NCBI RefSeq assembly: GCF_003634045.1
Contig: NZ_RBIM01000003.1
Span: 170,626-234,625, forward strand
DNA length: 64,000 nucleotides
Direction of reading: 5' to 3'
DNA from: Maricaulis maris
GTDB taxonomy: Bacteria; Pseudomonadota; Alphaproteobacteria; Caulobacterales; Maricaulaceae
The position numbers were made by a program, and so were the translations under genes. Below the pieces are notes generated by a model that had not been told where the DNA came from, searched no databases, and was given only the letters and a program-made list of their open reading frames with translations. This document shows positions 1 to 16,897 of this stretch, in pieces. Within the stretch, counting starts at the first letter, position 1. Each line of letters starts with the position of its first letter.

Positions 1-3
1 TGA

Positions 4-30
4 CCGGGATCGCCATGAAGGCGATCCCGG
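4..30 (-). terminator. Flagellin transcription terminator hairpin
   Basis: A perfect 11-bp inverted repeat (CCGGGATCGCC / GGCGATCCCGG) with a 5-base loop lies 10 bases past the flagellin stop codon. The U-tract expected of an intrinsic terminator would fall outside the window on this strand, so only the stem is seen. Confidence 0.7.
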
Positions 31-40
31 CCGGACGAAC

Positions 41-868
41 TTAGCCGAAGAACGACAGGATGGTCTGCGGCGCCTGGTTGGCAATGGAGAGCGCCTGGAC
101 ACCCAGCTGCTGCTTGACTTGCAGCGACTGGAGCCGTGCGCTTTCCTTGGCCAGGTCGGCGTCGACCAAATTGCCGATCCCCTGCTCCAGCGTATCGGTC
201 AACTTCGACACGAAGGTGTTGTGCACCTCGAGTGACTTCGAAGCCGTACCCAACTTGGCCAGGGACGAGTTGAGGTTGTCGAGAGACGTTTCGATCGTGG
301 CGACAAGCGTAGATGCTTCACCAGCCGTCGCGAAGGAAGCCGCGGCCGCCACCGTCACGACACCACCGGCCAGGGTAAAGTTCTGGTCGGAGATGAGGAT
401 CGTGTTGGTACCGTCCGAGTTGGCCAAAGCCGAAACCGAGGTCACCGTCCCGTTGATCAGGTTGGTGCCATTGAATTCGGCGTTTGAAGTGATCGTGGTG
501 ATCTGGTCACGCAAGGCCTTGAAGTCTTCGTTCAGAGCCGTACGGGAGGCTGCATCAAGCGATGCATCAGATGCCGCGAGCGCCTTTTCCTTCATTTCGA
601 CGAGAATATCGGAAATCGCCTCACCGGCAGCCAGGGCTACGTCGGTGACGGAAGTCGCAAGGTCCAGACTTTGAGAGACCGCGCCATAGCCGACGACCTG
701 TGAGCGCATGCGCTGGGCAATGGCGTAAACGCCACCATTGTCCTTCGCACTGGCCACTTCCAGTCCGGTGTTGATGCGGGTCTGAACCTCGTTCATTTCC
801 ATGTTCGTCTTGTTCAGGTTCTGCAGGGCGATCATCGCCCCAGCGTTGGTGTTTACTGAAAGTGACAT
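41..868 (-). CDS. Flagellin
   Basis: This 275-residue protein is the filament subunit of the polar flagellum, exported by the flagellar type III system. The N-terminal ~130 residues (starting MSLSVNTNAG) and C-terminal ~80 residues (ending QTILSFFG) are the conserved D0/D1 coiled-coil segments. The middle is short and rich in Ser, Thr, Ala and Asn, which is typical of the small glycosylated alphaproteobacterial flagellins. The start at 868 is chosen because GGAGAG sits 7 bases upstream; an upstream ATG at 883 would put that Shine-Dalgarno inside the coding region. A sigma-54 promoter lies upstream, flbT-flaF are the next genes on the same strand, and a flmG-like gene is nearby. Other flagellin copies probably exist elsewhere. 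Confidence 0.95.
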   Translation of the reverse strand: MSLSVNTNAGAMIALQNLNKTNMEMNEVQTRINTGLEVASAKDNGGVYAIAQRMRSQVVGYGAVSQSLDLATSVTDVALAAGEAISDILVEMKEKALAASDASLDAASRTALNEDFKALRDQITTITSNAEFNGTNLINGTVTSVSALANSDGTNTILISDQNFTLAGGVVTVAAAASFATAGEASTLVATIETSLDNLNSSLAKLGTASKSLEVHNTFVSKLTDTLEQGIGNLVDADLAKESARLQSLQVKQQLGVQALSIANQAPQTILSFFG

Positions 869-931
869 TGTTTTGCTCTCCATTCTGGATGCGTTTCAGG
901 CCGAGTTTTTCAGCCGCGAGCGTTTTGCTCG
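869..931 (-). promoter_or_regulatory. Flagellin 5' untranslated leader, possible FlbT target
   Basis: If transcription starts 12 bases after the -12 element, the mRNA has a leader of about 63 nt. The 9-mer GAGCAAAAC occurs twice in it: at the very 5' end (complement of 922-930) and again overlapping the Shine-Dalgarno (complement of 870-878). In Caulobacter, FlbT acts post-transcriptionally on the flagellin leader. That the repeat takes part in this is inference. Confidence 0.5.
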
Positions 932-942
932 CATCAGGTATC

Positions 943-956
943 GCAAACGGCGTGCC
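943..956 (-). promoter_or_regulatory. Sigma-54 (RpoN) promoter of flagellin
   Basis: Read on the minus strand the site is GGCAC-GCCGT-TTGC, matching the -24/-12 consensus GGCAC-N5-TTGC with exact spacing. It lies about 75 bases upstream of the flagellin start. Late flagellar genes of Caulobacter relatives are sigma-54 dependent, which fits. Confidence 0.8.
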
Positions 957-1003
957 GCATTGGACGCGCAATTTAGTCAATGATTTGAATATTTTAGGAT
1001 ATT

Positions 1004-1032
1004 AAAAAAGGCACCTTCCGGAGAAGGTGCCT
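1004..1032 (-). terminator. Intrinsic terminator of flbT-flaF
   Basis: A perfect 9-bp stem (AGGCACCTT / AAGGTGCCT) with a 6-base loop is followed on the minus strand by six T residues. It lies 36 bases past the flaF stop, so the flbT-flaF transcript ends here and flagellin has its own promoter. Confidence 0.9.
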
Positions 1033-1068
1033 GTTCCTGCCTGCCTGTTATTGCCGCCCCGGCAGTTC

Positions 1069-1449
1069 TTACCCTACGGCCTGATCCGCGCCGGCACCGG
1101 CCTGTGGCATCAACCCCTGCATGACGGTCCGGTTGATATCGACCAGATCATCGATCGCTTCGGGATTGCGCATGGCGTGACTGCCGTGTTTGGAGACGAA
1201 GATCGACAGGGAAATGATCGCCGCACGGAGCGCTTCCGGCAGCTGGTTGTCCTGACTGGCGCAGTCGAGCGCCAGATTGCTCCAGACGCGCCGATTCCAG
1301 TCAATGGCCTCGGCCCGGTCACGGACCGCTTCCATGGGGAGCGTCTTGGCGTTCATGAGCGACCGCGTCACCTGGGCAAAGAGCCGGTATTCGGTGGCAC
1401 GGGGATCCTCCGCGCGTGCGGCGGTCTTCTGATAAGCTTGAAAGGACAT
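1069..1449 (-). CDS. flaF: Flagellar biosynthesis regulator FlaF
   Basis: This 126-residue soluble protein begins MSFQAYQKTAARAEDPRATE, characteristic of FlaF. In Caulobacter, FlaF is needed for flagellin synthesis or secretion and works with FlbT, which represses flagellin translation until the hook is complete. The start codon overlaps the flbT stop codon (TGATG), so the two are translationally coupled. The length is typical of the family. An intrinsic terminator follows. The assignment is secure from sequence and neighbours. Confidence 0.93.
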   Translation of the reverse strand: MSFQAYQKTAARAEDPRATEYRLFAQVTRSLMNAKTLPMEAVRDRAEAIDWNRRVWSNLALDCASQDNQLPEALRAAIISLSIFVSKHGSHAMRNPEAIDDLVDINRTVMQGLMPQAGAGADQAVG

Positions 1450-1835
1450 CAGCCCAGCCTCTCGGCTTCGTAGGTCATGAGTTTGCGGCAGCCCAGAAGC
1501 GCCTTGTAATGCTCGCCCGCCATCACATCACGACTGACATTGACACACAGGGCCAGCAATTCCGGCGCCGAGACAACGCCCATGAACTCATTCATGCGCA
1601 GCACGAATTCGTCATAGAGCTTGTCGTCATTCTTGTCGGACAGATACATCATCATGATCGGGAAATAGATCCGCTTCACGGGCGTATCGACATCGGCGGC
1701 TTGCAGGATGTCCTTTTCGCGGAGCACCGAAGCCTTGTTCTGCAGCACAAGATTGGCCCGCCGGTCACCGTTTTCGATAACGGCTCCGTTCAGGACAAAC
1801 TTCTCGCCGGGTTTGAGCGAGATTTTGAGCGGCAT
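1449..1835 (-). CDS. flbT: Flagellin translational repressor FlbT
   Basis: This 128-residue protein starts MPLKISLKPGEKFVLNGAVI, the hallmark of FlbT. In Caulobacter, FlbT promotes decay or repression of flagellin mRNA through its 5' leader before hook assembly is finished. The start at 1835 is preceded by GGAGGG at suitable spacing; the reading frame is open further upstream but shows no flagellar-family sequence there. It is first in an operon with flaF and diverges from the flmG-like gene. The flagellin gene it should control lies immediately downstream. Confidence 0.93.
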   Translation of the reverse strand: MPLKISLKPGEKFVLNGAVIENGDRRANLVLQNKASVLREKDILQAADVDTPVKRIYFPIMMMYLSDKNDDKLYDEFVLRMNEFMGVVSAPELLALCVNVSRDVMAGEHYKALLGCRKLMTYEAERLG

Positions 1836-2002
1836 GGGGTCCCTCCGGTCCACAAGTGAAGCGAGCGATGACGTTCGCGATCTGCAGGTTGGCAATACGG
1901 GGTGAAGAAAAGGTTTCCGTCCCAACTTGTCGGCATCATCGAATATTAGCGAGTTCTTAAAGCGAATCCCCTGCCTTGGCTCACAGAATCGAGGCAGAAT
2001 TG

Positions 2003-3805
2003 ATGAACATGCAGGAAGCCACAGCGCTCGACCTTGATGCGGAAATTTCCGCCGAGGCCGAAATCGAGAAGAACGAAACCCGCGATGCTGTGCCCCTCGG
2101 CGCGCAGGCGGTTCGTGTGGAGGTCCCGGTCGACCGCATGCCGGCCGACCGCCGCCGCATCTATCAAAAGGTCGCCGCGCTTGCCAAACGCGCGATGAAA
2201 ACCTCGGCAGAGGGCGAAAATGTCGCCGCAGCCCGCCTGGCTCACAAGGCTTGGCTTCTCGCGCCCGACATGGCCCTGACCAATCATGTCCTCGGGCTGA
2301 TGCTGTATAATCTGGGACGATTGTCGCGGGCGCTCGATTTTTTCGAGACCGCCTGGAAGATTGATCCCAAGGACGCGGAAATCTACCAGAAACTCGGCCT
2401 TGTCGCCTGGAAGCTCGACATGCTGGAGGCGGCCGAAAAATTCTATCGCCTGCAATACAAGCTCGCGCCGACCGCCGTCGATGCCGCGATCAATCTGGGC
2501 GGCGTGCTGCGCGATGCCGGCAAGTTCGAGGAAGCAATCGAGATTCTGCGCACCGCCATCTATGCGCACCAGGAAAATTATGAACTCTGGAACTCGATGG
2601 GCACCGTCATCAATGACAGTGGTGACCCGATCCAGGCCCGCACCTTCTATGAGGAAGCGCTGCGCCTGAAGCCGGATTATGGCCGCGCCCACAATAACAT
2701 GGCCAATATCCACGAACTGCTCGGTGAACCGGAGCTCGCGATTCCGCATTTCGACGCGGCGCTGAAGGATCCTGCCGACGCGATGGAAGAGGCCACCATG
2801 CGGCACGGCCGGTCGATGGTGCTGCTGGCCGCCGGCCGCATCGAGGAGGGTTGGGCAGCCAATGAGAGCCGCCTCAATCCCAACCGCGCCCAGGCGACCC
2901 TCTTCACCCTGAAAGCGCCTTTCTGGGACGGCACCAACCCACAGCAACTGCGTGGCAAGACCGTCTTGCTGGTCGGTGAGCAAGGGCTTGGCGACGAAGT
3001 CCTCTTCATGAACATCGTCAAGGACATGCTCGAAGCCGTCGGGCCCGATGGCGAGCTGCGGATCGCCTGCGAATACCGCCTGATGCCGCTGGTCAAACGC
3101 TCCTTCCCGCAGGCCGTGGTCGGACACCACATGTCGGCCAATGTCGAAGGCCGTGACGTTCGCGTGGTGCCCAAGCTGGAAGACGGTGCCGATTTCTGGA
3201 CGCCGATGGCCACGCCGCTTCGCGCTTTCCGGAACACGATTGACGACTATCCGGCCGAGGAAGGCTTCCTCACGCCGGACCCGGCGGTGCAGTCCGAGTT
3301 CCGGACCCAGATCGACGGATTTGGCAGCGGGTTGAAAGTCGGCATTCTGTGGAAATCGCTCAATATGAATGCCCGCCGCTCGCGTTTCTTCTCGGCCTTT
3401 GATGCCTGGGAAGGTGTGCTGCGGACGCCCGGTGTCGACTTCATCAATCTGCAATATGGCAAGGTGGCGGACGAATTGGAACTGGCGCGGGAGCGCTTTG
3501 GCGTCACCATCCATCAGCCGACCGATATCGACCTCAAGATGGAGCTCGACAAGGTGGCCGCCTACGCCTCGGCCTGCGACCTCGTGCTCGGCCCGATGAA
3601 TGCGACCTCCAACCTCGCCGCGGCCTGCGGCGGCAAGGTCTGGTTCATCCACGCCCGCTCATCGACCTGGACCCTGCTCGGGACCGACCGGCAGCACTGG
3701 TATCCGCAGACACGCTCCTATTTCGGCAAGGGTTTCCGCGATTGGGACAATACGATGAAGCGCGTCGCCGATGATCTCGCCGCCCTTGCCGGCGCTGCGG
3801 ATTGA
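2003..3805 (+). CDS. flmG: TPR-containing flagellin glycosyltransferase (FlmG-like)
   Basis: This 600-residue soluble protein has two parts. Residues ~60-260 are tandem TPR units (for example around ALDFFETAWKIDPKDAEIY and EAIEILRTAIYAHQENYELW). Residues ~310-595 form a glycosyltransferase domain with GEQGLGDEVLF at its start and a late ATSNLAAACGGKVWF / HWYPQTRSYFG segment. This matches FlmG of Caulobacter, whose TPRs bind flagellin and whose GT domain transfers pseudaminic acid. The ATG at 2003 has GAGG 8 bases upstream; a TTG at 1976 is possible but less likely. It sits beside flagellin and opens the nonulosonate gene run, with a 3-nt gap to pseG. The specific sugar is inferred from the neighbours. 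Confidence 0.85.
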   Translation: MNMQEATALDLDAEISAEAEIEKNETRDAVPLGAQAVRVEVPVDRMPADRRRIYQKVAALAKRAMKTSAEGENVAAARLAHKAWLLAPDMALTNHVLGLMLYNLGRLSRALDFFETAWKIDPKDAEIYQKLGLVAWKLDMLEAAEKFYRLQYKLAPTAVDAAINLGGVLRDAGKFEEAIEILRTAIYAHQENYELWNSMGTVINDSGDPIQARTFYEEALRLKPDYGRAHNNMANIHELLGEPELAIPHFDAALKDPADAMEEATMRHGRSMVLLAAGRIEEGWAANESRLNPNRAQATLFTLKAPFWDGTNPQQLRGKTVLLVGEQGLGDEVLFMNIVKDMLEAVGPDGELRIACEYRLMPLVKRSFPQAVVGHHMSANVEGRDVRVVPKLEDGADFWTPMATPLRAFRNTIDDYPAEEGFLTPDPAVQSEFRTQIDGFGSGLKVGILWKSLNMNARRSRFFSAFDAWEGVLRTPGVDFINLQYGKVADELELARERFGVTIHQPTDIDLKMELDKVAAYASACDLVLGPMNATSNLAAACGGKVWFIHARSSTWTLLGTDRQHWYPQTRSYFGKGFRDWDNTMKRVADDLAALAGAAD

Positions 3806-3808
3806 TTC

Positions 3809-4735
3809 ATGACGGCGCGGTTTGCCATCCGCACTGACGGGTCCACCACCATTGGTCTGGGTCATGTCATGCGCTGCGGCGCCCTGGCCAATGCCCTAGT
3901 CGCCGAGGGCGCGGAACCGCTCTGGCTGACGACGACACCGCAGCACCGGCCCGCCGATCTGGCCCCAGGCATTGAAGTCGTCGTATTGGCCGATGATGAC
4001 GAACTCGGCCCGACACTGGACCGACACGGCATCCGCCATCTCGTCGCCGACTGGAAATTTACCGAAGCGGACCGGGTCGCGGCCCTGCGCGCCGCCGGCC
4101 GGCATGTGAGCCTGATCGGCAATTTCCTGCACGGGGCGGTACCCGACCTGCACGTCCGTCAGGGCTTTCTGCCCGCCCTTTCCCCGTCGGGCGCGGCGGC
4201 ACTGAGCGGTCCGAAATATCTCCTTCTGTCAGATGCTTACCGGGCGCTGCCCACCCGTCAGACCGCCGATCGGGCGAACCGCATCCTGGTCTCGCTGGGC
4301 GGCACGATCACGCCCGTGCTCGACCGTATCCGCGAGCGCTTGGCCGAGACGTTTTCCGGCCTTATCGACTGGCGCGGACCGGCGTCGAACGGCCCCGTGC
4401 CGCCCCTCGCGCAGGCCCTGCGCCAGGCCGATATCGGGATACTGGCCGGTGGCACCACGCTGCACGAAGCGGCAGCGACCGGCCTGCCCACCCTGTGCGT
4501 ACCGATCGCATCCAACCAGCTCGACCGCGCCGAACAGTTCGAGAGCGTCGGCCTCGGCATCAGCCTCAACCCCGACGATCCCGGCTTTGACCGCCAGTTC
4601 GAGGCCGCCCTGGAAACGCTGATGCGCGATGCCGGTCGCCGCGGCGCAATGGCGCGCAATGGTCAGGCACTGGTCGATGGCGATGGCGCCGGACGCGTCG
4701 CCCGCCATCTCATCGGACTGGCGGCGACAGCCTGA
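3809..4735 (+). CDS. pseG: UDP-2,4-diacetamido-2,4,6-trideoxy-beta-L-altropyranose hydrolase (PseG)
   Basis: This 308-residue enzyme has a GT-B-like fold. It removes UDP from the bacillosamine-type precursor in pseudaminic acid synthesis. The N-terminus carries RTDGSTTIGLGHVMRCGALA, the PseG signature, including the His-19 position expected to be catalytic. The C-terminal half carries GGTTLHEAAATGLPTLCVPI and an NQLDRAE nucleotide-binding segment. The gene follows the flmG stop by 3 bases. PseB, PseC and PseH are not in the window and must be encoded elsewhere if the full pathway exists. A legionaminate-type hydrolase (NeuC/LegG) looks different, so PseG is favoured. Confidence 0.85.
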   Translation: MTARFAIRTDGSTTIGLGHVMRCGALANALVAEGAEPLWLTTTPQHRPADLAPGIEVVVLADDDELGPTLDRHGIRHLVADWKFTEADRVAALRAAGRHVSLIGNFLHGAVPDLHVRQGFLPALSPSGAAALSGPKYLLLSDAYRALPTRQTADRANRILVSLGGTITPVLDRIRERLAETFSGLIDWRGPASNGPVPPLAQALRQADIGILAGGTTLHEAAATGLPTLCVPIASNQLDRAEQFESVGLGISLNPDDPGFDRQFEAALETLMRDAGRRGAMARNGQALVDGDGAGRVARHLIGLAATA

Positions 4736-4830
4736 GAATCGCAGTAAATCCTTAAGTCTCAACAGCTCCACTGGACGCTGGCACGGTACTGATTCGCACC
4801 GCCGCCGCGACACAGGAACAGGCGACCGGC

Positions 4831-5805
4831 ATGACCCGCAAATCCGACACTCCCATCGCAGCCGCGCCAGGCGCCGCTCAGGTCTGGCCGAACTTTCTGG
4901 TCATCGGCGCGCCGAAATCCGGCACCACCTCGCTCTACCATTATCTCAGCCAGCATCCCGACGTCTTCCTGTCGAAGGTCCGCAAGGAAGGCCGCTTCTT
5001 TTCCGGGGTCGGGGATGGCTCGGTCTATTGGCCGGACTTCTATCATTTCGACACCGCGCCCGATGTCAGCGACTACCAGGCCCTGTTCGCTGATCATGAC
5101 GGCCAAGCGCGCGTCGGTGACGTGTCGCCGGACTATTACGCCTATGCCCCGATCGCGGCCCGTCGCATCCTGACCTATTGCGGCAGCGGGACGAGAATCA
5201 TCGCCATCCTGCGCAATCCGGTCGACCGGACCTGGTCGCACTATCTGCAGAATGTCCGCCGCGATGCCGAATTTTACTCCTTCGAAAAAGCCCTCGCCGA
5301 CGAACCGCGCCGGATCGCCGCCAATTGGGGGTTTCAGTGGCTCTATGCCGATACTGGCCGCTATGCCGAACGCCTGCGCCAGTATCGCGACCGGTTCGAC
5401 GACGTGCTGATCCTGCTTCAAGACGAGCTCGACCAGGACGGTCCGGGCACGGTGCGGCGGATATTCGAGTTTCTGGAGATCGATGCCGACATCCCTGTCA
5501 CCGTCGAGGCGCGCTACAATACCGGCGGCATTCCACGTGCCAAAATGAGCATATTGGACGGTGCCCATGATGATCGCGACGGGGTGAGTTTTGAAACCCT
5601 GCACGCCGAACTCGTCGCGCCGGTGACCGGCATCGCCGGTGCCACCAGCGCCGACGGCGTCTATCCGCCGATCGATGAGGCCAAGGTCTCGATCCCGCCC
5701 ATGGCCGCCGCGACCCGGGCCCGGCTGCAAGAGAGGTTCGAGCCGGAAATCGTCGCACTGGAAGACCTGCTCGGTCGCTCGCTCGACATGTGGCGGCCCT
5801 CATGA
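4831..5805 (+). CDS. PAPS-dependent sulfotransferase
   Basis: This 324-residue cytosolic protein has the 5'-phosphosulfate loop GAPKSGTTSLYHYL at residues ~26-39 and the 3'-phosphate binding segment ILRNPVDRTWSHYLQN near residue ~127. Both are diagnostic of the sulfotransferase fold related to heparan N-sulfotransferases. It would transfer sulfate from PAPS to a hydroxyl or amino group of a sugar or glycan. Its stop overlaps the start of the ATP-grasp gene (ATGA), and the gene lies inside the flagellin-sugar run, so the acceptor is plausibly the nonulosonic acid, the glycosylated flagellin, or a related surface glycan. The acceptor is inference. A gap of 95 bases separates it from pseG. Confidence 0.85.
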   Translation: MTRKSDTPIAAAPGAAQVWPNFLVIGAPKSGTTSLYHYLSQHPDVFLSKVRKEGRFFSGVGDGSVYWPDFYHFDTAPDVSDYQALFADHDGQARVGDVSPDYYAYAPIAARRILTYCGSGTRIIAILRNPVDRTWSHYLQNVRRDAEFYSFEKALADEPRRIAANWGFQWLYADTGRYAERLRQYRDRFDDVLILLQDELDQDGPGTVRRIFEFLEIDADIPVTVEARYNTGGIPRAKMSILDGAHDDRDGVSFETLHAELVAPVTGIAGATSADGVYPPIDEAKVSIPPMAAATRARLQERFEPEIVALEDLLGRSLDMWRPS

Positions 5806-6854
5806 GCCTGGCCGCACTGACCTCCGGCATATTGGTGACAGGCGTTGGCGCTCCGCCAGGCCTGGGCACGCTGCGCTCGCTGCGCAGCGCCGATCCCGAC
5901 CTCGTCCTGGTCGCCGCCGACACCAATCCACTGGCCGGTGGCTTGTTTGAGCCGGGCACGCAGAGCCAGACCCTGCCCTCCGCCGCCGCCGATCCGGAGG
6001 CCTACCGCAAGACCGTGCGGGCGGTGTGCGAAGCGCGCGGGCTGGACATCATCATTCCCGGCTCGGAAGCCGAAGTCGCGGCGCTGGCGCCGGTCGCGCG
6101 CAGCTGGAGCGCGCAAGGACTGCGCGTGCCGGTGGCCGAGCCGGAGGTGATTGCCTTCGGGATCGACAAGGGCCTGCTGCTCGACCGCGTCAAACAGGTC
6201 GGCCTGCCGCACCCGCAGACCCTGCAACCGTCCAGCGAAGCCGATCTGGCCGACTGGTCCGGCGGCTTTCCCTGTGTGATCAAACCGCGCAGCTCACGCG
6301 GCGCGCGTGGGGTCGGCTATCCCGCCGACGCGAACGAGCTGGCCGCGGCCTGGCGCGAGACGACGGATGCGCATGGCCCCTGCCTGGTCCAGCAACTCAT
6401 CCCCGGCGGTGCCGACACCGTCTACACGATCGGCTCGCTGTGGAATCAGGGCGATCTCGTCGTCTCGACCCTGCACCGAAAGCTCCAGACCAATCCACCG
6501 ACCGGCGGGGTGGCGATTGCTGGCGAGACGGTCGATGACCCTGACTTGATGGCGGCCGGTCTTGCCGTGCTGCAAGCCTCCGGCCCCTGGCACGGCCTTG
6601 CTGCGGTCGAGCTGAAACGCCCGACCCGCGACGCGCCGGCCTTTCTGCTCGAAATCAATCCGCGGATGTGGGGCTTTGGCTATCTGATGACCCTCGCCGG
6701 CCTCAACATCCCGGCCCTGCTGGTGCGCATGCTGGCCGGACGGGAGCACGTGTCCGGCCATATCCCGTCAACCTTTCCGCCTTACGCTCCGACGCGTATG
6801 GTTCGAACCTGGCAGGATATCGAAATCCCGCCGACCGAGGAGACGCGAGCGTGA
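5802..6854 (+). CDS. ATP-grasp carboxylate-amine ligase-like protein
   Basis: This 350-residue protein has an N-terminal Rossmann-like region (ILVTGVGAPPGLGTLRSLR) and an ATP-grasp core: the nucleotide-binding segment CVIKPRSSRGARGVG near residue 160 and the metal-binding EINPRMWGFGY near residue 285. The family joins a carboxylate to an amine or thiol through an acyl-phosphate. The CarB-like subgroup is frequent in surface polysaccharide loci, where it adds amino acids or carbamoyl-type groups. The start at 5802 overlaps the sulfotransferase stop, and its own stop overlaps the next GTG start, so all are co-translated. A carboxylate such as that of a nonulosonic acid is an attractive substrate, but this is inference. 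Confidence 0.8.
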   Translation: MSLAALTSGILVTGVGAPPGLGTLRSLRSADPDLVLVAADTNPLAGGLFEPGTQSQTLPSAAADPEAYRKTVRAVCEARGLDIIIPGSEAEVAALAPVARSWSAQGLRVPVAEPEVIAFGIDKGLLLDRVKQVGLPHPQTLQPSSEADLADWSGGFPCVIKPRSSRGARGVGYPADANELAAAWRETTDAHGPCLVQQLIPGGADTVYTIGSLWNQGDLVVSTLHRKLQTNPPTGGVAIAGETVDDPDLMAAGLAVLQASGPWHGLAAVELKRPTRDAPAFLLEINPRMWGFGYLMTLAGLNIPALLVRMLAGREHVSGHIPSTFPPYAPTRMVRTWQDIEIPPTEETRA

Positions 6855-7579
6855 CCCGAACAGTCGCCGTCATCCAGGCCCGCACCGGATCCAACCGGCT
6901 GCCGGGCAAGATACTCGAGACGCTGCACGATGATGTGTCGCTGCTGGCCTATCAATGCCGCCATCTGCGCCAGATTGACGGGGTCGACGAGCTGGTGATC
7001 GCCACCACGACCAATCCCGATGACGACGCCGTGGTCACCCTGGCCGAGGGCGAAGGCATCCGCGTCTTTCGCGGTTCCGAGGAGGACGTGTTGTCGCGCT
7101 TCCTGCTGGTCGCCGACCAGACGCTCGCCAAGACGCTGGTCCGCATCACCTCGGACAGCCCGTTCCGCGATCCGGCCGTGATCGCCCGCTGCGTCGCCGA
7201 GCACAACGCCCAGGGCGCCGAATACACCCGCCCCAGCGCCGGTCACCTGCCCAAGGGGCTGCGCGCGGAAGTGGTCGAGACCGCCGTGCTGCGTCAGCTC
7301 GATGCCGCCGCCGGGACCACAGCGCGCGACCGCGAACACGTGACCGTCTTCATCCGCGACCATCTCGACCGTTTCCGCTGCCACAATGTGGATTTTCCGG
7401 AGCCGCTGCATCGACCGGATTTCGATGTCTCGGTCGATACGATCGACGATCTCGCCCTCGTACGGGCCCTCTACGCCGCCCTGTCCGAGCGCGACTGGCC
7501 GGTGGACACCGCCCATCTGTGCCGCCTGCACGACGAGACGCATGTGCTCAAATCCATCCTCACCGACCTGGCTTCCTGA
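6851..7579 (+). CDS. Acylneuraminate-type cytidylyltransferase (PseF/SpsF family)
   Basis: This 242-residue enzyme starts at GTG 6851, overlapping the preceding stop by 4 bases. The N-terminus AVIQARTGSNRLPGKIL is the nucleotide-binding signature of CMP-sugar synthetases of the SpsF/PseF group. Later motifs include RITSDSPFRDP and FDVSVDTIDDL. It should activate the nonulosonic acid with CTP to give the CMP-sugar donor used by FlmG. The Caulobacter equivalent is FlmC. It lies between the ATP-grasp gene and neuB with a 3-base gap to the latter. The exact sugar specificity cannot be read from sequence. Confidence 0.82.
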   Translation: MTRTVAVIQARTGSNRLPGKILETLHDDVSLLAYQCRHLRQIDGVDELVIATTTNPDDDAVVTLAEGEGIRVFRGSEEDVLSRFLLVADQTLAKTLVRITSDSPFRDPAVIARCVAEHNAQGAEYTRPSAGHLPKGLRAEVVETAVLRQLDAAAGTTARDREHVTVFIRDHLDRFRCHNVDFPEPLHRPDFDVSVDTIDDLALVRALYAALSERDWPVDTAHLCRLHDETHVLKSILTDLAS

Positions 7580-7582
7580 CCC

Positions 7583-8500
7583 ATGACCCATATCGATGTG
7601 ATTGCCGAAATCGGCTCCAATCATGGCGGCGATCTCGATGAAGCCAAACGCTATGTCGAAGCCTGCGCCAAGGCCGGTGCCGACGTCGTCAAATTCCAGA
7701 CCCTGACCCGCGAGGGCCTGATCGCCCGCTTCGTCAAGGACAGCGACGGCAAGATCGTCGAAAACCCGAAATTCGCCGCCTTCGGCAATGCCGGACTACC
7801 CGATGACTGGCACGCCCCACTGAAAGCCTGCGCCGAGGACAATGGCGTCGAATTCATGTCGACGCCCTTCTCGCTCGCCGCCGTCGAGCTGATGGAGAGC
7901 CTCGGCGTCAAACGCTACAAGATCGCCTCGGGAGACCTGACCTTCACGCCGCTTCTGGAAGCGCTGGGCGCGACGCGCAAACCGCTCATCCTGTCGACCG
8001 GCGCCAGCTATCTCGACGAGGTCGTGCAAGCTGTGAACACGCTGAGCCGGGCCGGTTGCACGCGGCTGACAGTGCTGCACTGCGCCGCCAGCTATCCGCC
8101 GGCCTGGGATGATCTCAACCTGACGGCGATCACCCGCCTGCAGACCGCGCTCGGTCTGGCGGTCGGCCTGTCCGACCACTCACCCGGTGCCATGGCGCCG
8201 ATTGCCGCAGCGGCCCTGGGCGCCGTGGTGATCGAAAAACACGTCACCTTTGACCGCAATACGCCGGGCCCGGACCATCCCTTCGCCATGGAAATGGACG
8301 AGCTGGCCGCCATGATCACCGATCTGCGCAATCTGGAAACCGCGCTCGGCGATGGCGAGAAAAAGCCGGCCGCCAGCGAAATCAACCGCCGCCGCAATCT
8401 GCGCCGCGGCCGCTATGACGCGGCCACCGGCAAGCCGGATGACAACGGGACCGACTGGCTGCGCCCGCAACACGCCCCGGACGATCGCGCGGAATTCTGA
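7583..8500 (+). CDS. neuB: Nonulosonic acid synthase (NeuB/PseI family), short form
   Basis: This 305-residue enzyme condenses phosphoenolpyruvate with a 6-deoxy-diacetamido hexose, or a related sugar, to form a nine-carbon sialic-acid-like sugar. TIM-barrel motifs are intact: AEIGSNHGGDLDEAKRYVE, KFQTLTREGL, FMSTPFS, YKIASGDLT, LSTGASYLDE, GLSDHSPG and IEKHVTFDRNTPGPDHPFAM. Family members are usually ~340-350 residues, ending in a SAF (antifreeze-like) domain that caps the active site of the partner subunit. Here the protein stops about 35 residues after the point where that domain should begin (RRRNLRRGRYDAATG). It is the last gene of the run. Confidence 0.85.
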   Translation: MTHIDVIAEIGSNHGGDLDEAKRYVEACAKAGADVVKFQTLTREGLIARFVKDSDGKIVENPKFAAFGNAGLPDDWHAPLKACAEDNGVEFMSTPFSLAAVELMESLGVKRYKIASGDLTFTPLLEALGATRKPLILSTGASYLDEVVQAVNTLSRAGCTRLTVLHCAASYPPAWDDLNLTAITRLQTALGLAVGLSDHSPGAMAPIAAAALGAVVIEKHVTFDRNTPGPDHPFAMEMDELAAMITDLRNLETALGDGEKKPAASEINRRRNLRRGRYDAATGKPDDNGTDWLRPQHAPDDRAEF

Positions 8501-8809
8501 TCAGTCCATGGGCGCCCACATCTGGATCGTCTCGTACAGATCGTCCCAATCGGGATTGGTGCGCTCGATCAGATTGATTTTCCATTGGCGATGCCAGTTT
8601 TTCAGGCGTTTCTTGCGCTCTATGGCAAAACCGAAATCCTGGTGAAACTCGTACCAGACCAGGCGATTGACCTTGTACTTCCGGGTAAAGGCCGAGCCCT
8701 TGCCTTCCTTGTGCAGCATGATCCGCATCGCGATATTGCCCGTCACGCCGATATAGAGTGTGCCGTTGCGCTGGCTGGCGAGGATGTAGACGCATGGATG
8801 GCGAGCCAT
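8501..8809 (-). CDS. GIY-YIG nuclease superfamily protein
   Basis: This 102-residue protein is a minimal GIY-YIG domain. The core reads CVYILASQRNGTLYIGVTGN (residues ~6-25), followed by RKYKVNRLVWYEFH and ERKKRLKNWHRQWK, typical of the small UvrC-endonuclease-like family found in many copies in alphaproteobacteria. It is convergent with neuB, and the stops are adjacent. The biological role of these stand-alone domains is unknown; DNA repair or mobile-element ancestry is suggested in general. No partner gene is evident here. Confidence 0.85.
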   Translation of the reverse strand: MARHPCVYILASQRNGTLYIGVTGNIAMRIMLHKEGKGSAFTRKYKVNRLVWYEFHQDFGFAIERKKRLKNWHRQWKINLIERTNPDWDDLYETIQMWAPMD

Positions 8810-8880
8810 GCGCGGATTGTAGCTTTTGGCATATCGGCGCGTCCGTGATGCCGGTCATGCGCGCGCATGATTTCCAGCCT

Positions 8881-9004
8881 CTTCCAACCGTCATCCTGAC
8901 GAAGGTCAGGACCCAGATCATAAAGCGAGATGGTGCCCAGGCTGGATAGATCCCGCCTTGGGATCTGGGCCCTGACCTTCGTCAGGGTGACGCTAGTTTG
9001 GAAG
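8881..9004. repeat. Long imperfect inverted repeat
   Basis: The left arm 8881-8919 and right arm 8962-9004 are complementary over about 35 bases (both carry the block CTGACGAAGGTCAGG/CCTGACCTTCGTCAG). The whole could fold into a long hairpin between two convergent or unrelated genes. It resembles the dispersed palindromic intergenic elements of alphaproteobacteria and is similar in design to those at 10845-11343. No coding capacity is apparent between 8810 and 9086. Confidence 0.7.
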
Positions 9005-9042
9005 CACCATTGGAAGAGCCAGAAGCGGCGCAGAAACAAAAA

Positions 9043-9064
9043 AGGGCGCCCGAAGGCGCCCCTT
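9043..9064 (-). terminator. Intrinsic terminator of the cupin gene
   Basis: A GGGCGCC-CGAA-GGCGCCC stem-loop is followed on the minus strand by six T residues, 23 bases past the cupin stop. The plus-strand side also has four T residues, so weak bidirectional action is possible. Confidence 0.85.
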
Positions 9065-9086
9065 TTGTCTCGCTTGTAACCCACCC

Positions 9087-9800
9087 TTACTTCGTCCGGA
9101 TCGCGTCGATCTTCGAAGCCGAGACACCGTCAACAATCGTGCGATTGATCATCGGGTGGTTTTCGTCCTGGGGACCGAAATCACTGTCCGGGTGATAGGC
9201 GATGACCCGCATCTCGCTGTCGGTGGTGCGGAATTTGTGATTGCCCTCATAGGGGATGCGGAACATCACGCCCGGCTCGAGCGGGATGATGCCTTCCGGG
9301 GTCACACATTCGCCGCGCCCGGAGAAGACCACGCCGATCCGGTCGGAGGGGTGGGTGTGCGGGGTCTGGTCGATGCCCGGCGGGAAATAGAGCAGGTTGA
9401 GGCAGGGATCACCCATCTTGACCGGCGCCACCAGCAGGCTGTCGGTACAACCGTCAATGTATTTCAGGCGCCCCTGCGGCTCGACCGGTCCGCCGATCAT
9501 GAAGAAGGCCTGGTGGTATTCGCGGGCCATCACGATGCCGCGGCCACCGGAGACGGTGAGCGCGTTGTTGGCCGAGAAATACATGCCCGCCTGCAGCTTG
9601 AACTGGCCGGACGCGGTGACCAGTGTCGCCTCGCCGTCCTGGACAAAGCCGAAATAGGCCGTATCGACATTGCCCAGTTCCAGCGTCTCGCCGTCCCAGG
9701 CATGCAAGCTCGTCGGGAAGTTGGGATCGCAATCCGCCACTTTCCCGGTCAGCCATTCAAAGGCGTAAAAATTCTGCGTCCGAATCATCCCGTCAGCCAT
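9087..9800 (-). CDS. Cupin-domain protein
   Basis: This 237-residue protein contains a C-terminal cupin barrel with the metal-ligand pattern PHTHPSDRIGVVFSGRG (His-x-His) and a later GNHKF, so it probably binds a metal. The N-terminal half (ENAFEW-like region, ANNALTVSGGRGIVMAREYHQAFFMIGG) may be a second cupin barrel. The start at 9800 (MADGMIRTQNF) has an AGAGG-like site upstream; an alternative Met lies 4 codons in. It is divergent from the MoxR gene. Bicupins cover dioxygenases, isomerases and sugar-binding proteins, and I cannot choose among them. Confidence 0.8.
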   Translation of the reverse strand: MADGMIRTQNFYAFEWLTGKVADCDPNFPTSLHAWDGETLELGNVDTAYFGFVQDGEATLVTASGQFKLQAGMYFSANNALTVSGGRGIVMAREYHQAFFMIGGPVEPQGRLKYIDGCTDSLLVAPVKMGDPCLNLLYFPPGIDQTPHTHPSDRIGVVFSGRGECVTPEGIIPLEPGVMFRIPYEGNHKFRTTDSEMRVIAYHPDSDFGPQDENHPMINRTIVDGVSASKIDAIRTK

Positions 9801-9944
9801 GGCTCGAGCACCTCTTCCATCATGCAAGCACACTCGACGGGATTCGTCTTTACAGTCCCTTAATCGACGCGTGTTGGTGGCGAATACAAAATTAACGGGC
9901 ACTGCCCTCTGGAGACATGCGACCAATCGCGCTAGATCGCTCCC

Positions 9945-14397: not shown

Positions 14398-14494
14398 TGT
14401 GCAACTGGTCGGGATATGAAAATTTGTGGCACAACGGAGAAACGAACAGCGGCGGTCGCAGGACATGCCCGCGGACGACAGTCGGGAGAGCATT

Positions 14495-15730
14495 ATGAAA
14501 ACGACGGGATATCTGATCGCGGCCTTGTCCGCCCTGGCGTTGGGCGCCTGCGGCAATGGCGACACATCACGCGATGTGTCCGGGGCCAATGCCGAGTACC
14601 AAGCGACGCTGCTGGAACAGCTCATCGACGCCCAGCCGGGCGATGTGATCGAGATTCCGGCCGGCGTTTACAGCTTTGACCGCTCCTTGAGCCTCAATGT
14701 CGACAACGTCACCATTCGCGGCGCCGGCATGGACGAGACCATTCTGTCCTTCCAGGGCCAGGTCGCAGGCGCCGAAGGCCTGATCGTCAATGCCAATGGT
14801 TTCACACTGGAAGACCTCGCCATCGAGGACACGATCGGTGACGGCCTGAAAGTGAATGGCGGCGAGAACATCATCATTCGTGGCGTGCGCGTCGAATGGA
14901 CCAATGGCTATGCCACCGAAAACGGCGCCTACGGCATCTATCCGGTGCAGACAACGAATGTGCTGGTCGAGAACACCGTCGCGATCGGCGCGTCGGATGC
15001 CGGTATCTATGTCGGCCAGTCGCGCAATGTGATCGTCCGCAACAGCCGTGCCGAATACAATGTCGCCGGGATCGAGATCGAGAATTGCATCGGCGCCGAT
15101 GTCTACGGCAACACCGCCACCAACAATACCGGCGGCATCCTGGTCTTCAACATGCCGAACCTGCCGCAGCCGGGCTATCACACCCGCGTCTACGACAATG
15201 ACGTGTTCGCCAACAATACCGAGAATTTCGGCCATGCCGGCACGCCGGTGGCCAGCGTTCCGGCCGGTTCGGGCATTGTCATCAACTCGAATGACCAGGT
15301 CGAGATCTTCAACAATCGTATCTCCGACAACAACACCGCCAACATCATCATCTCCAGCCTGCATTCGACCGGCTATTCGGATTACTCCGTGCAGACCGAT
15401 TTCGATCCCTATCCGGAAACGATCTGGATCCATGACAACATCTATTCCGGTGGTGGTACCTCGCCCGACGGGCTCGACCTGACGGCACTGAAAATCGCCC
15501 TGTTCGGTCTCAATGGCGCCCTGCCCGACGTCCTGTTCGATGGCTATGTCGACACCGCGAAGATGGTGGACGGCGCCATGCCGGACGCCTTGCGCATCTG
15601 TGTTGCCGACGAGGTCGACGTGCTCAATGCCGACGGTCCCAACGGGTATGACTCGCCACGGGTCGACACCGAGGCCTTCCGTTGCACGCTCGACAGCCTT
15701 TCGGGCGTCGAACTGGCGCTCGCCGATTAA
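14495..15730 (+). CDS. Parallel beta-helix repeat lipoprotein
   Basis: This 411-residue protein starts MKTTGYLIAALSALALGAC, a lipoprotein signal with lipobox LGAC. It is followed by a right-handed parallel beta-helix spanning residues ~45-300 (repeating turns such as NIIIRGVRVEW, NVLVENTVAIG, NVIVRNSRAEY and GADVYGNTATN). The family corresponds to the beta-helix proteins always found beside a diheme cytochrome of the HNE_0200/SO2930 type. The function of the pair is unknown. The start at 14495 has GGGAGAG 5 bases upstream. The cytochrome gene follows after a 42-base gap, so an operon is likely. Polysaccharide binding or lysis would suit the fold, but no catalytic residues can be assigned. Confidence 0.85.
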   Translation: MKTTGYLIAALSALALGACGNGDTSRDVSGANAEYQATLLEQLIDAQPGDVIEIPAGVYSFDRSLSLNVDNVTIRGAGMDETILSFQGQVAGAEGLIVNANGFTLEDLAIEDTIGDGLKVNGGENIIIRGVRVEWTNGYATENGAYGIYPVQTTNVLVENTVAIGASDAGIYVGQSRNVIVRNSRAEYNVAGIEIENCIGADVYGNTATNNTGGILVFNMPNLPQPGYHTRVYDNDVFANNTENFGHAGTPVASVPAGSGIVINSNDQVEIFNNRISDNNTANIIISSLHSTGYSDYSVQTDFDPYPETIWIHDNIYSGGGTSPDGLDLTALKIALFGLNGALPDVLFDGYVDTAKMVDGAMPDALRICVADEVDVLNADGPNGYDSPRVDTEAFRCTLDSLSGVELALAD

Positions 15731-15772
15731 ATCGGAACACGTGTGGGTATGGGTGTGAGTTTGACTGTGACG

Positions 15773-16897
15773 ATGAATCCGATGCGCGGCCTTGTGCTGA
15801 TCCTGGTCGGCCTGCTGGCCGCGTGCTCGCAGAATGCACCAACGCCGCAATTCCATGCTGACGACAATCCCCGGCTGCTCTCCGAATGGGGACAGCTGGG
15901 CATCGTCGGCGCGGAGCTGCGCACCGGTGCCGGTGTCGTCACCTATGATCTCAACACCCCGCTCTTCACCGACTACGCCCTCAAACTGCGCACCATCTGG
16001 ATGCCCGAGGGCGTGTCGGCCGATTATCGTGAGAATGATGTGCTCGACTTCCCGGTCGGCACGGTCATCACCAAGACCTTCTACTATGCCAGCGCCGGCG
16101 GGCCGGACCGGGTCTCGCGCGGTGACGGCCATGCCTTGGTCACCGCGGACGGCCATCTCGACCTCGACGCGGTGCAATTGATCGAGACCCGCATTCTGGT
16201 GCGCCGTGAAAACGGCTGGGCGGCCCTGCCCTATCGCTGGAATGAGGATCAGACCGAGGCCGTCCTGCTGCGCTATGGCGACGTCATCCCCCTGCAGATG
16301 ATTGACGCCGACGGCAGCGAGACCGGGTTCAATTATGTCATGCCGGACGTTAATCAGTGCGCCAGCTGCCATGCCCCGGATTCCAACACGCGGATTATCT
16401 CGCCGATCGGTCCGAAACCGCGCCATATCAACCGTGATTTCGACTATCCCGACGGCACGCGAAACCAGCTCGATCACCTGACGGCTATCGGCTATCTGAC
16501 CGGCGCGCCGCAGGCGGATACCGCGCCCCGCAATGCCGATTGGGCCGATATCAACGCCAGCCTGGAAGCCCGCGCCCGCGCATATCTGGACGCCAATTGC
16601 TCACATTGCCACAGCCCGGTCGGGCCGGCCGACACGTCCGGGCTGAACCTTGAACCCGACATCGCCCACGGCCCAGCTTTGGGCATCTGCAAACTGCCGA
16701 TCGCGGCCGGTTCGGGAACCGGCGATCGCCGTCATGACATCGTTCCGGGCGCGCCCGACGAATCGATCCTGCTCTTCCGCCTCGACAATGTGCAACCGGA
16801 CGAAATGATGCCGGAAGTCGGCCGCTCGACCATCCACACGGAAGGTGTTGAGTTGATCCGGGCCTGGATTGAAAGCCTGCCCGGCGATTGCAACTGA
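15773..16897 (+). CDS. Diheme c-type cytochrome lipoprotein (SO2930/HNE_0200 family)
   Basis: This 374-residue protein has an N-terminal lipoprotein signal (GLVLILVGLLAACS). Two heme c motifs are seen: CASCH near residue ~195 (NQCASCHAPDS) and CSHCH near ~275 (NCSHCHSPVG). Methionines such as EMMPEVGRS near the C-terminus may supply axial ligands. Members occur only next to the beta-helix protein found just upstream. Periplasmic electron transfer or peroxidase-like chemistry is plausible but unproven. Several in-frame starts exist (GTG 15743, ATG 15749, ATG 15773); 15773 gives the best signal peptide, although no clear Shine-Dalgarno is visible. The stop abuts the convergent TetR gene. Confidence 0.85.
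   Translation: MNPMRGLVLILVGLLAACSQNAPTPQFHADDNPRLLSEWGQLGIVGAELRTGAGVVTYDLNTPLFTDYALKLRTIWMPEGVSADYRENDVLDFPVGTVITKTFYYASAGGPDRVSRGDGHALVTADGHLDLDAVQLIETRILVRRENGWAALPYRWNEDQTEAVLLRYGDVIPLQMIDADGSETGFNYVMPDVNQCASCHAPDSNTRIISPIGPKPRHINRDFDYPDGTRNQLDHLTAIGYLTGAPQADTAPRNADWADINASLEARARAYLDANCSHCHSPVGPADTSGLNLEPDIAHGPALGICKLPIAAGSGTGDRRHDIVPGAPDESILLFRLDNVQPDEMMPEVGRSTIHTEGVELIRAWIESLPGDCN

Follow-up and report, generated by a model that had tools for sequence, protein, structure and literature searches.

A run of six genes in Maricaulis maris (Alphaproteobacteria, Caulobacterales, Maricaulaceae) combines genes of nonulosonic acid biosynthesis with a sulfotransferase (ST) and an ATP-grasp ligase, all next to flagellin genes. 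The run lies at positions 2003-8500 of a 64,000-nucleotide (nt) stretch of DNA (NCBI RefSeq assembly GCF_003634045.1, contig NZ_RBIM01000003.1, positions 170,626 to 234,625), called the window below, which belongs to contig C3 of a 3.57-Mb genome. The initial annotation regarded ST and ligase as additions to the pathway. Their embedding in the run and their conservation stand, but the ligase more plausibly replaces the acetyltransferase PseH than adds a further decoration. The more telling point, which that reading missed, is that PseH is not found in the genome of the window (TIGR03585, E <= 1e-10) and that its place appears to be taken. We tentatively propose that the genes make a modified pseudaminic-type nonulosonic acid, in which the ligase would act in place of PseH, ST would add a sulfate and the FlmG-like protein would transfer the product to flagellin.

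Conservation of the gene run

The comparison covered 299 genomes of the order. The ligase has matches at E <= 1e-15 in 31 genomes, 13 of which are at orthologue level (at least 373 bits; next best 76 bits). For ST, 20 genomes have matches at E <= 1e-20, and the same 13 stand out with at least 345 bits (next 125 bits). These comprise all 12 sampled Maricaulis genomes and one Oceanicaulis genome (G063). No match near the orthologue score of either protein was present in the other 286 genomes, and in the whole sample the two orthologues were only found together. The order FlmG-PseG-ST-ligase-cytidylyltransferase-NeuB is kept in 13/13 genomes according to 20-kb maps and tblastn; in five of the automatic maps an overlapping antisense frame hid one to three genes, whose positions came from tblastn. 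The assumption of the initial annotation that ST and ligase share one pathway with the nonulosonate genes agrees well with this placement between PseG and NeuB. The same gene set, which it had proposed to seek in relatives, is present in 13 of the 299 genomes and colinear in each of them, and the opposite case, both genes without nonulosonate genes, was not seen in any of the 13 genomes that carry both orthologues.

The ST, ligase, cytidylyltransferase and NeuB proteins share 52-91% identity among the 13 genomes. Their dN/dS values are 0.07-0.19 in four genome pairs with dS >0.3 and 0.15-0.32 in a fifth pair with dS <0.1; over the five pairs they amount to 0.08-0.15 for ST and 0.09-0.18 for the ligase. 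A two-peptide-pattern search over 84,980 species revealed 72 loci, 13 of which belong to this operon. Three Maricaulis loci are located on contigs beyond the 13 genomes. Two of them (L124 and L128) are complete and the third (L125) stops at the contig end within the cytidylyltransferase gene. The run is present in M. salignorans, M. parjimensis and M. alexandrii. Distances between orthologues also agree over the 13 genomes for gene pairs that do not include ST (r 0.83-0.95). The gene run is real and conserved, and is more than a chance arrangement. This conservation is deep within one lineage, with one other genus added, and does not represent many independent cases.

The place of PseH

PseH (TIGR03585) was detected above the cut-off in 2/13 genomes. 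At E <= 1e-10 the matches likewise come from 2/12 Maricaulis genomes, and PseH was found at this threshold neither in the other ten nor in Oceanicaulis G063. No TIGR03585 match in the genome of the window reached E 1e-10. Both Maricaulis PseH matches adjoin a second, canonical pseI/neuB gene (G054 and G138). The G054 set consists of cytidylyltransferase, PseG, PseH and PseI and lies between FlmG and the variant PseG (L095). Its PseG, PseH and PseI score 214, 132 and 475 bits, all above cut-off, and so the canonical set passes the PseG and PseI cut-offs that the PseG and NeuB of the window fail. The canonical set of G138 is located on another contig (L247). A second Pse cassette in G088 has a formyltransferase (PF00551) between PseG and PseI (L100, 13847-16759, minus strand), which suggests N-formyl pseudaminic acid as its predicted product. 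Maricaulis can therefore harbor ordinary Pse cassettes beside the variant one. In G103, a second NeuB on another contig (C23:211731-212453) is the best-scoring of the sample (328 bits) and has a match to the PseC model 2.5 kb away; it may belong to another nonulosonate pathway. A second nonulosonate synthase as the source of the acyl part, conceivable for Shewanella oneidensis, was considered for the variant cassette and dropped, since 8/12 Maricaulis genomes have a single NeuB.

To see which enzyme occupies the position of PseH in relatives, 33 nonulosonate loci of the same family were compared, namely the second cassette of G138 and loci from all 31 other NeuB genomes (two from G083, and one of the two present in G218). 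References drawn from these loci, ten of them examined with Pfam, served as tblastn queries to assign the enzymes near PseG or PseI. A GNAT-type PseH was clear in seven loci and weak (40-52 bits) in six. A formyltransferase was clear in two and weak in one, a hexapeptide transferase clear in five and weak in one, and a different ATP-grasp enzyme clear in four and weak (88-92 bits) in two. No candidate acyl enzyme was found near PseG or PseI in the remaining five. Three of the four clear ATP-grasp enzymes are of one type and the fourth is PylC-like and located beside a HAD gene. The G178 protein, the one scanned of the first type, shows carbamoyl phosphate synthetase (CPSase)/ATP-grasp matches, with the L-amino-acid-ligase C-terminal family at 19.8 bits (cut-off 29.4). 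The genus of G063 alone shows three solutions, namely PseH (G044, G083), the other ATP-grasp enzyme (G178, G208, G252) and ST plus ligase (G063). This gene order in relatives suggests that the ligase stands in for PseH, a reading that we regard as slightly more probable than not.

Three loci from the Oceanicaulis-like genus (L231 at 8253-9485 on the minus strand, L232 and L233) carry another ATP-grasp gene, encoding 410 amino acids (aa) in L231, beside PseI, PseG and cytidylyltransferase, and FlmG adjoins this set in L231 and L232. In a further genus of the family, a PylC-like ATP-grasp gene and a HAD hydrolase gene are located beside PseG, PseI and a NeuA-like gene (L244, 8599-10229, minus strand).

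Sulfotransferase and ATP-grasp ligase

ST matches PF13469 (5.8e-13) and PF00685 (1.2e-9), both above cut-off. Its nearest solved structure by sequence and fold is 3rnl, followed by heparan sulfate 3-O- and N-sulfotransferases. Residues K29, E53, R128 and S136 are invariant in 13/13 proteins, and E53 aligns with the Glu of the 'ephff' stretch of 3-O-sulfotransferases. We take K29, R128 and S136 to belong to the loops that bind 3'-phosphoadenosine 5'-phosphosulfate (PAPS) and E53 to be the catalytic base. Adenosine 5'-phosphosulfate (APS) kinase, which is needed for PAPS formation, was found in 12/13 genomes. We consider it likely that ST sulfates the glycan made by this run.

The ligase matches NF009402 with 128.5 bits (cut-off 218), and its Pfam matches also remain below cut-off (PF02655 with 21.9 vs 23.2 bits, PF15632 with 25.5 vs 29.1 bits). 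The AlphaFold model (pLDDT 85.6) resembles many ATP-grasp enzymes, among them carbamoyl phosphate synthetase, 2pn1 and the L-amino acid ligases 3vot and 4wd3, with TM-scores of 0.53-0.70 among the 50 matches listed. For the modelled protein these matches fix the predicted fold, not the substrate. K161, E270, E284 and N286 are invariant in 13/13 ligases and presumably serve as nucleotide and metal ligands. The best solved relative by sequence is 8evy with 27 bits, and no near homologue of known function was found.

More distant relatives of the ligase were tried as a guide to its function and set aside. Of the 72 loci mentioned above, 59, mostly from haloarchaea, gave no ST, PseG or NeuB in tblastn with the proteins of the window, apart from a NeuB in L192; five of the 59 (L157, L160, L166, L177 and L187) have PseB- or PseC-like genes only. 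A further search gave ligase matches at E <= 1e-25 in 3/337 genomes including its own, and the two others have no ST, PseG or NeuB. In L192 (7559-9208, plus strand), which belongs to a gammaproteobacterial metagenome-assembled genome, a ligase relative with its middle missing overlaps a full-length NeuB gene by ATGA, which makes it a distant counterpart of this gene pairing. Viral relatives were confirmed in no case for the ligase, and no PHROG was found for ST, ligase, cytidylyltransferase or NeuB.

A shortened NeuB

The NeuB of the window scores 287 bits with NeuB_NnaB (cut-off 399.65) and 243.8 bits with PseI (cut-off 340.25). Pfam detects no antifreeze-like (SAF) domain in it and does detect one in the canonical PseI of G054, these being the two proteins in which SAF itself was searched for. 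The variant NeuB is 301-310 aa long in 13/13 genomes, compared to 346-367 aa in 35/35 comparators, and the remnant of the domain keeps an invariant Arg-Pro pair in the alignment (R294-P295). All variant proteins form one clade with a support of 100/100, in a tree in which long branches may meet, so that the attachment of this clade is unsure. In NeuB of Neisseria meningitidis, an arginine of the antifreeze-like domain holds the N-acetyl group of the substrate. In this enzyme, the partner subunit contributes substrate-binding residues through its antifreeze-like domain (PMC7591256). One may guess that a smaller SAF domain suits a bulkier N-substituent.

Other genes of the run and the flagellin island

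The six genes of the initial annotation, all on the plus strand, and their coordinates were confirmed and are listed in Table 1 together with flagellar neighbours. The proposed coupling by overlaps was correct for ATGA between ST and ligase (5802-5805) and for GTGA between ligase and cytidylyltransferase (6851-6854), but ST does not overlap pseG, from which it is separated by 95 nt (4736-4830). Spacers of 3 nt separate FlmG from PseG and cytidylyltransferase from NeuB.

Table 1. Features of the gene run and of the adjoining flagellar genes in the window.
Feature	Position	Strand	Length and evidence
One of the three flagellins of the island, presumed acceptor	41..883	-	by sequence and place
FlaF	1069..1449	-	by sequence and place
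FlbT	1449..1925	-	by sequence and place
FlmG-like protein, presumed flagellin glycosyltransferase	2003..3805	+	600 aa; N-terminal TPR domain and C-terminal part
PseG-like UDP-sugar hydrolase, divergent	3809..4735	+	308 aa; TIGR03590 8.4e-25
PAPS-type sulfotransferase (ST)	4831..5805	+	324 aa; PF13469 and PF00685 above cut-off
ATP-grasp carboxylate-amine ligase	5802..6854	+	350 aa; NF009402 2.3e-37, below cut-off; ATP-grasp fold
CMP-sugar synthetase, CTP_transf_3 family, KdsB-like by weak matches	6851..7579	+	242 aa; PF02348 3.6e-23
NeuB-family nonulosonate synthase without full SAF (antifreeze-like) domain	7583..8500	+	305 aa; PF03102 1.5e-81

The FlmG-like protein matches TPR families by Pfam and no glycosyltransferase family at E <= 0.01. 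It was compared with FlmG-position proteins of g25, another genus of the order (family f3), and is 39-45% identical to them over most of its length. Genus g25 was picked because PseH matches occurred there, and in 8/8 of its searched genomes an FlmG homologue is located at most 0.8 kb from pseH. PseG reaches 87.9 bits with TIGR03590 (cut-off 153.55). For the fifth gene the former label 'PseF-like' was generous. It does encode a cytidylyltransferase, but reaches only 19.2 bits (cut-off 205.7) with the PseF equivalog TIGR03584 and 17-41 bits, always below cut-off, with KdsB models; 6oew is a solved relative. Since the canonical cassette of G054 has no TIGR03584 match at E <= 1e-5 either, this equivalog separates little here.

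PseB and PseC are encoded upstream and end 4.0 kb and 2.8 kb, respectively, before the first base of the window. They score 499 bits (cut-off 407.75) and 469 bits (cut-off 423.5), and both equivalogs are above cut-off in the same island in 13/13 genomes. Thus, the opening two steps of pseudaminic acid synthesis are encoded in the island as well. Weaker matches to the PseB and PseC models occur on other contigs of the genome. A legionaminic pathway was considered for the island and dropped, because its PseB and PseC pass the equivalog cut-offs. Three flagellin genes, FlaG, FlaF and FlbT on the opposite strand separate PseB and PseC from FlmG; these flagellar labels were assigned by eye from sequence and place. 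The island very probably serves flagellin.

Promoter-like sites were found at chance level, with 72 sigma-54-like sites in the window (74 expected) and three sigma-70-like sites in positions 1-9900 (2.0 expected). One sigma-54-like site with one mismatch (943-957, minus strand), a class present at chance number, is located about 60 nt before the flagellin start. A gene for a GIY-YIG protein (PF01541; 8501-8809, minus strand) stands tail to tail with NeuB, and a relative of it occurs near the island in 4/11 other Maricaulis maps. Farther downstream, a protein with two CxxCH haem-binding motifs recognised by eye (15743-16897, plus strand) follows a predicted secreted repeat protein (14426-15730).

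Proposed pathway and alternative explanations

In the proposed pathway, PseB and PseC would convert UDP-N-acetylglucosamine (UDP-GlcNAc) to UDP-4-amino-4,6-dideoxy-L-AltNAc. Instead of PseH with acetyl-CoA, the ATP-grasp ligase would then acylate the 4-amine, using a carboxylic acid that is activated as acyl phosphate; the first guess for this acyl donor is an amino acid. The PseG variant would take off UDP, and the NeuB variant that lacks most of the SAF domain would condense the bulkier sugar with phosphoenolpyruvate. The cytidylyltransferase would make the CMP donor, ST would sulfate either the sugar or its acyl group, and FlmG would transfer the product to flagellin. The scheme is built on gene content, order and conservation, on the conserved likely catalytic residues, on the missing recognisable PseH and on the lost SAF end; the individual reactions and their sequence, the acyl donor and the site of sulfation are all inferred from these. 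A wider statement is put forward with more reserve. In Maricaulis, a ligase attaching an amino acid or a similar acid might have replaced the acetyl-CoA step of a flagellin sugar that has a dedicated ST, the synthase might have shed most of SAF to accept the product, and the N-acyl position might be a swappable slot in the family (acetyl, formyl, hexapeptide-type acyl or amino-acyl).

Several observations weigh against this proposal. The substrates of ligase and ST are assigned by reasoning from genes, like each chemical step. The model of ST is only fair (pLDDT 71.9), and G093 has no APS kinase match, though its ST is intact; possibly this reflects an assembly gap. The distances of ST correlate least with those of the other genes. 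The NeuB of the window is closer in score to NeuB_NnaB than to PseI. Full-length NeuB proteins (353, 351, 351 and 346 aa) are kept in all four clear loci with other ATP-grasp enzymes (G178, G208, G252 and G218), and the loss of SAF is therefore no simple consequence of ligase-type acylation. Because the 12 Maricaulis genomes are one lineage, the colinearity represents at most two independent events, and not all of the 33 comparison loci adjoin flagellin genes. Finally, PseH or formyltransferase from the second Pse cassettes of G054, G138 and G088 could feed the pathway.

Among the alternatives, an unrecognised acetyltransferase encoded elsewhere might lead to ordinary Pse5Ac7Ac, which ligase and ST would decorate later, e.g., with an amide elsewhere and a sulfate at O4 or O8. 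In C. crescentus, acetylation seems to be redundant, as mutants lacking flmH and two paralogues did not show the phenotype of neuB or flmG mutants (PMC7591256), and so an unrecognised acetyltransferase may serve. The position argument is also weakened by the fact that absence of PseH is common, with TIGR03585 matches (E <= 1e-10) in only 52 of 117 NeuB-bearing genomes of the sample, as tallied by eye from match lists, and weak GNAT matches occur in 13/13 genomes. However, the two in the genome of the window are nearest to the ArsN1 and RimJ models, below the cut-offs of both. Furthermore, in Pse5Ac7Ac no amine remains free as acceptor for a carboxylate-amine ligase, and the ligase is located between pseG and neuB, where relatives have pseH or its likely substitutes. 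We consider this explanation unlikely.

N-sulfation is less probable still. By analogy with heparan N-sulfotransferase, ST would then sulfate a free amine, either of the sugar or of an amino acid that the ligase has attached. Such an amine would be available, since PseC leaves one and no PseH is recognised, and the N-sulfotransferase domains 8ccy, 8cd0 and 1nst rank among the 3-O-sulfotransferases in the fold search. The 3-O-sulfotransferases score equally well or better, however, and the title of the best match, 3rnl, names no substrate.

There is little to recommend the assumption that ST and ligase serve a different surface glycan and stand in the operon by chance or for reasons of regulation. 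The 95-nt gap before ST offers room for a separate transcription start, and the distances of ST correlate least with those of the other genes (r 0.76-0.86). Both are outweighed by the overlaps which link ST, ligase and cytidylyltransferase, by the gene order kept even in another genus and by the joint occurrence of the two orthologues, and no promoter-like site above chance was found. Amidation of the C1 carboxylate of the nonulosonic acid by the ligase is very improbable, for although ATP-grasp enzymes activate carboxylates and the sugar carries one, CMP activation and transfer normally use the free C1 acid and the position argument favours the amine.

Relation to known systems

The nearest known system is that of C. 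crescentus with FlmG and Pse genes, in which flmG and flmH are neighbours and which has already been rebuilt in Escherichia coli (PMC7591256). Like Maricaulis with its FlmG-like protein, it has a TPR-type FlmG, and the PseB, PseC, PseG and NeuB steps and flagellins as acceptor are presumably shared. Maricaulis differs in that no PseH is recognised in 10/12 genomes, that ST and ligase are part of the run and that NeuB has lost most of its SAF domain.

For the combination of a short NeuB, an ATP-grasp gene and a mono-N-acetyl core, the nearest precedent is the sfmABCDE operon of Shewanella oneidensis. It encodes a 290-aa NeuB and an ATP-grasp protein and is needed for flagellin modification, and the flagellin carries mono-N-acetyl pseudaminic acid (274 Da) together with a moiety of 236-264 Da (PMC3765264). 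The likeness extends to the large moiety on the core and to the lack of a clear PseH. In contrast to Maricaulis, the ATP-grasp domain is of another type, MAF proteins take the place of FlmG, and the parts of this source available name no sulfotransferase, but a TPP enzyme, a reductase and a methyltransferase instead (PMC3765264).

The initial annotation knew of no flagellin glycan with both a sulfate and an amide. This is only just true, as a glycan of Clostridium difficile 027 comes close. On its flagellin, Fuc3N bears a taurine (sulfonate)-Ala-Gly amide, described as type B sulfonated peptidylamido-glycan (PMC5207245), and the ATP-grasp gene CDR20291_0245 is among the genes suggested for it (PMC5207246). 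Like our proposal, this case combines an amino sugar on flagellin, an amide-linked amino acid, a sulfur acid group and an ATP-grasp gene. It differs in that Fuc3N is not a nonulosonic acid and that the sulfur is present as taurine sulfonate; the word sulfotransferase is absent from PMC5207245. An amino-acyl nonulosonic acid, Leg5GluNMe7Ac, is found on Clostridium botulinum flagellin (PMC5207245, PMC13317340). Here the amino-acid-derived amide on a flagellin nonulosonic acid resembles the proposed product, whereas the sugar is of the legionaminic type, with the amide at C5 and no sulfate. Treponema denticola reportedly has a 450-Da flagellar nonulosonic acid with a trihydroxy-methoxy-hexanoyl group, likewise an acyl group larger than acetyl, and is not known to carry a sulfate. 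Geobacillus flagellin islands of types II-IV are without PseH and keep four other Pse genes, and formyltransferases occur in islands of this kind (PMC5109656, PMC4875605).

Exact-phrase searches of the open-access literature revealed no sulfated nonulosonic acid or sulfated flagellin. In the open-access text available, neither sulfate plus acyl on a nonulosonic acid nor a description of this combination was found in searches that combined pseudaminic or nonulosonic acid with ATP-grasp, carbamoyl phosphate synthase or sulfotransferase.

Judged by its genes, this Maricaulis may well carry an unusual sulfated and acylated relative of sialic acid on its flagella. Nonulosonic acids on flagellin are exposed on the outermost organelle of the cell, the contact point for phages and other cells. 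If the proposal is true, the run would provide enzymes for a bacterial sulfated nonulosonic acid and another chemistry for N-acylation, usually the task of PseH. It would also offer a natural NeuB with most of its SAF end removed, which would help to show the purpose of that domain.

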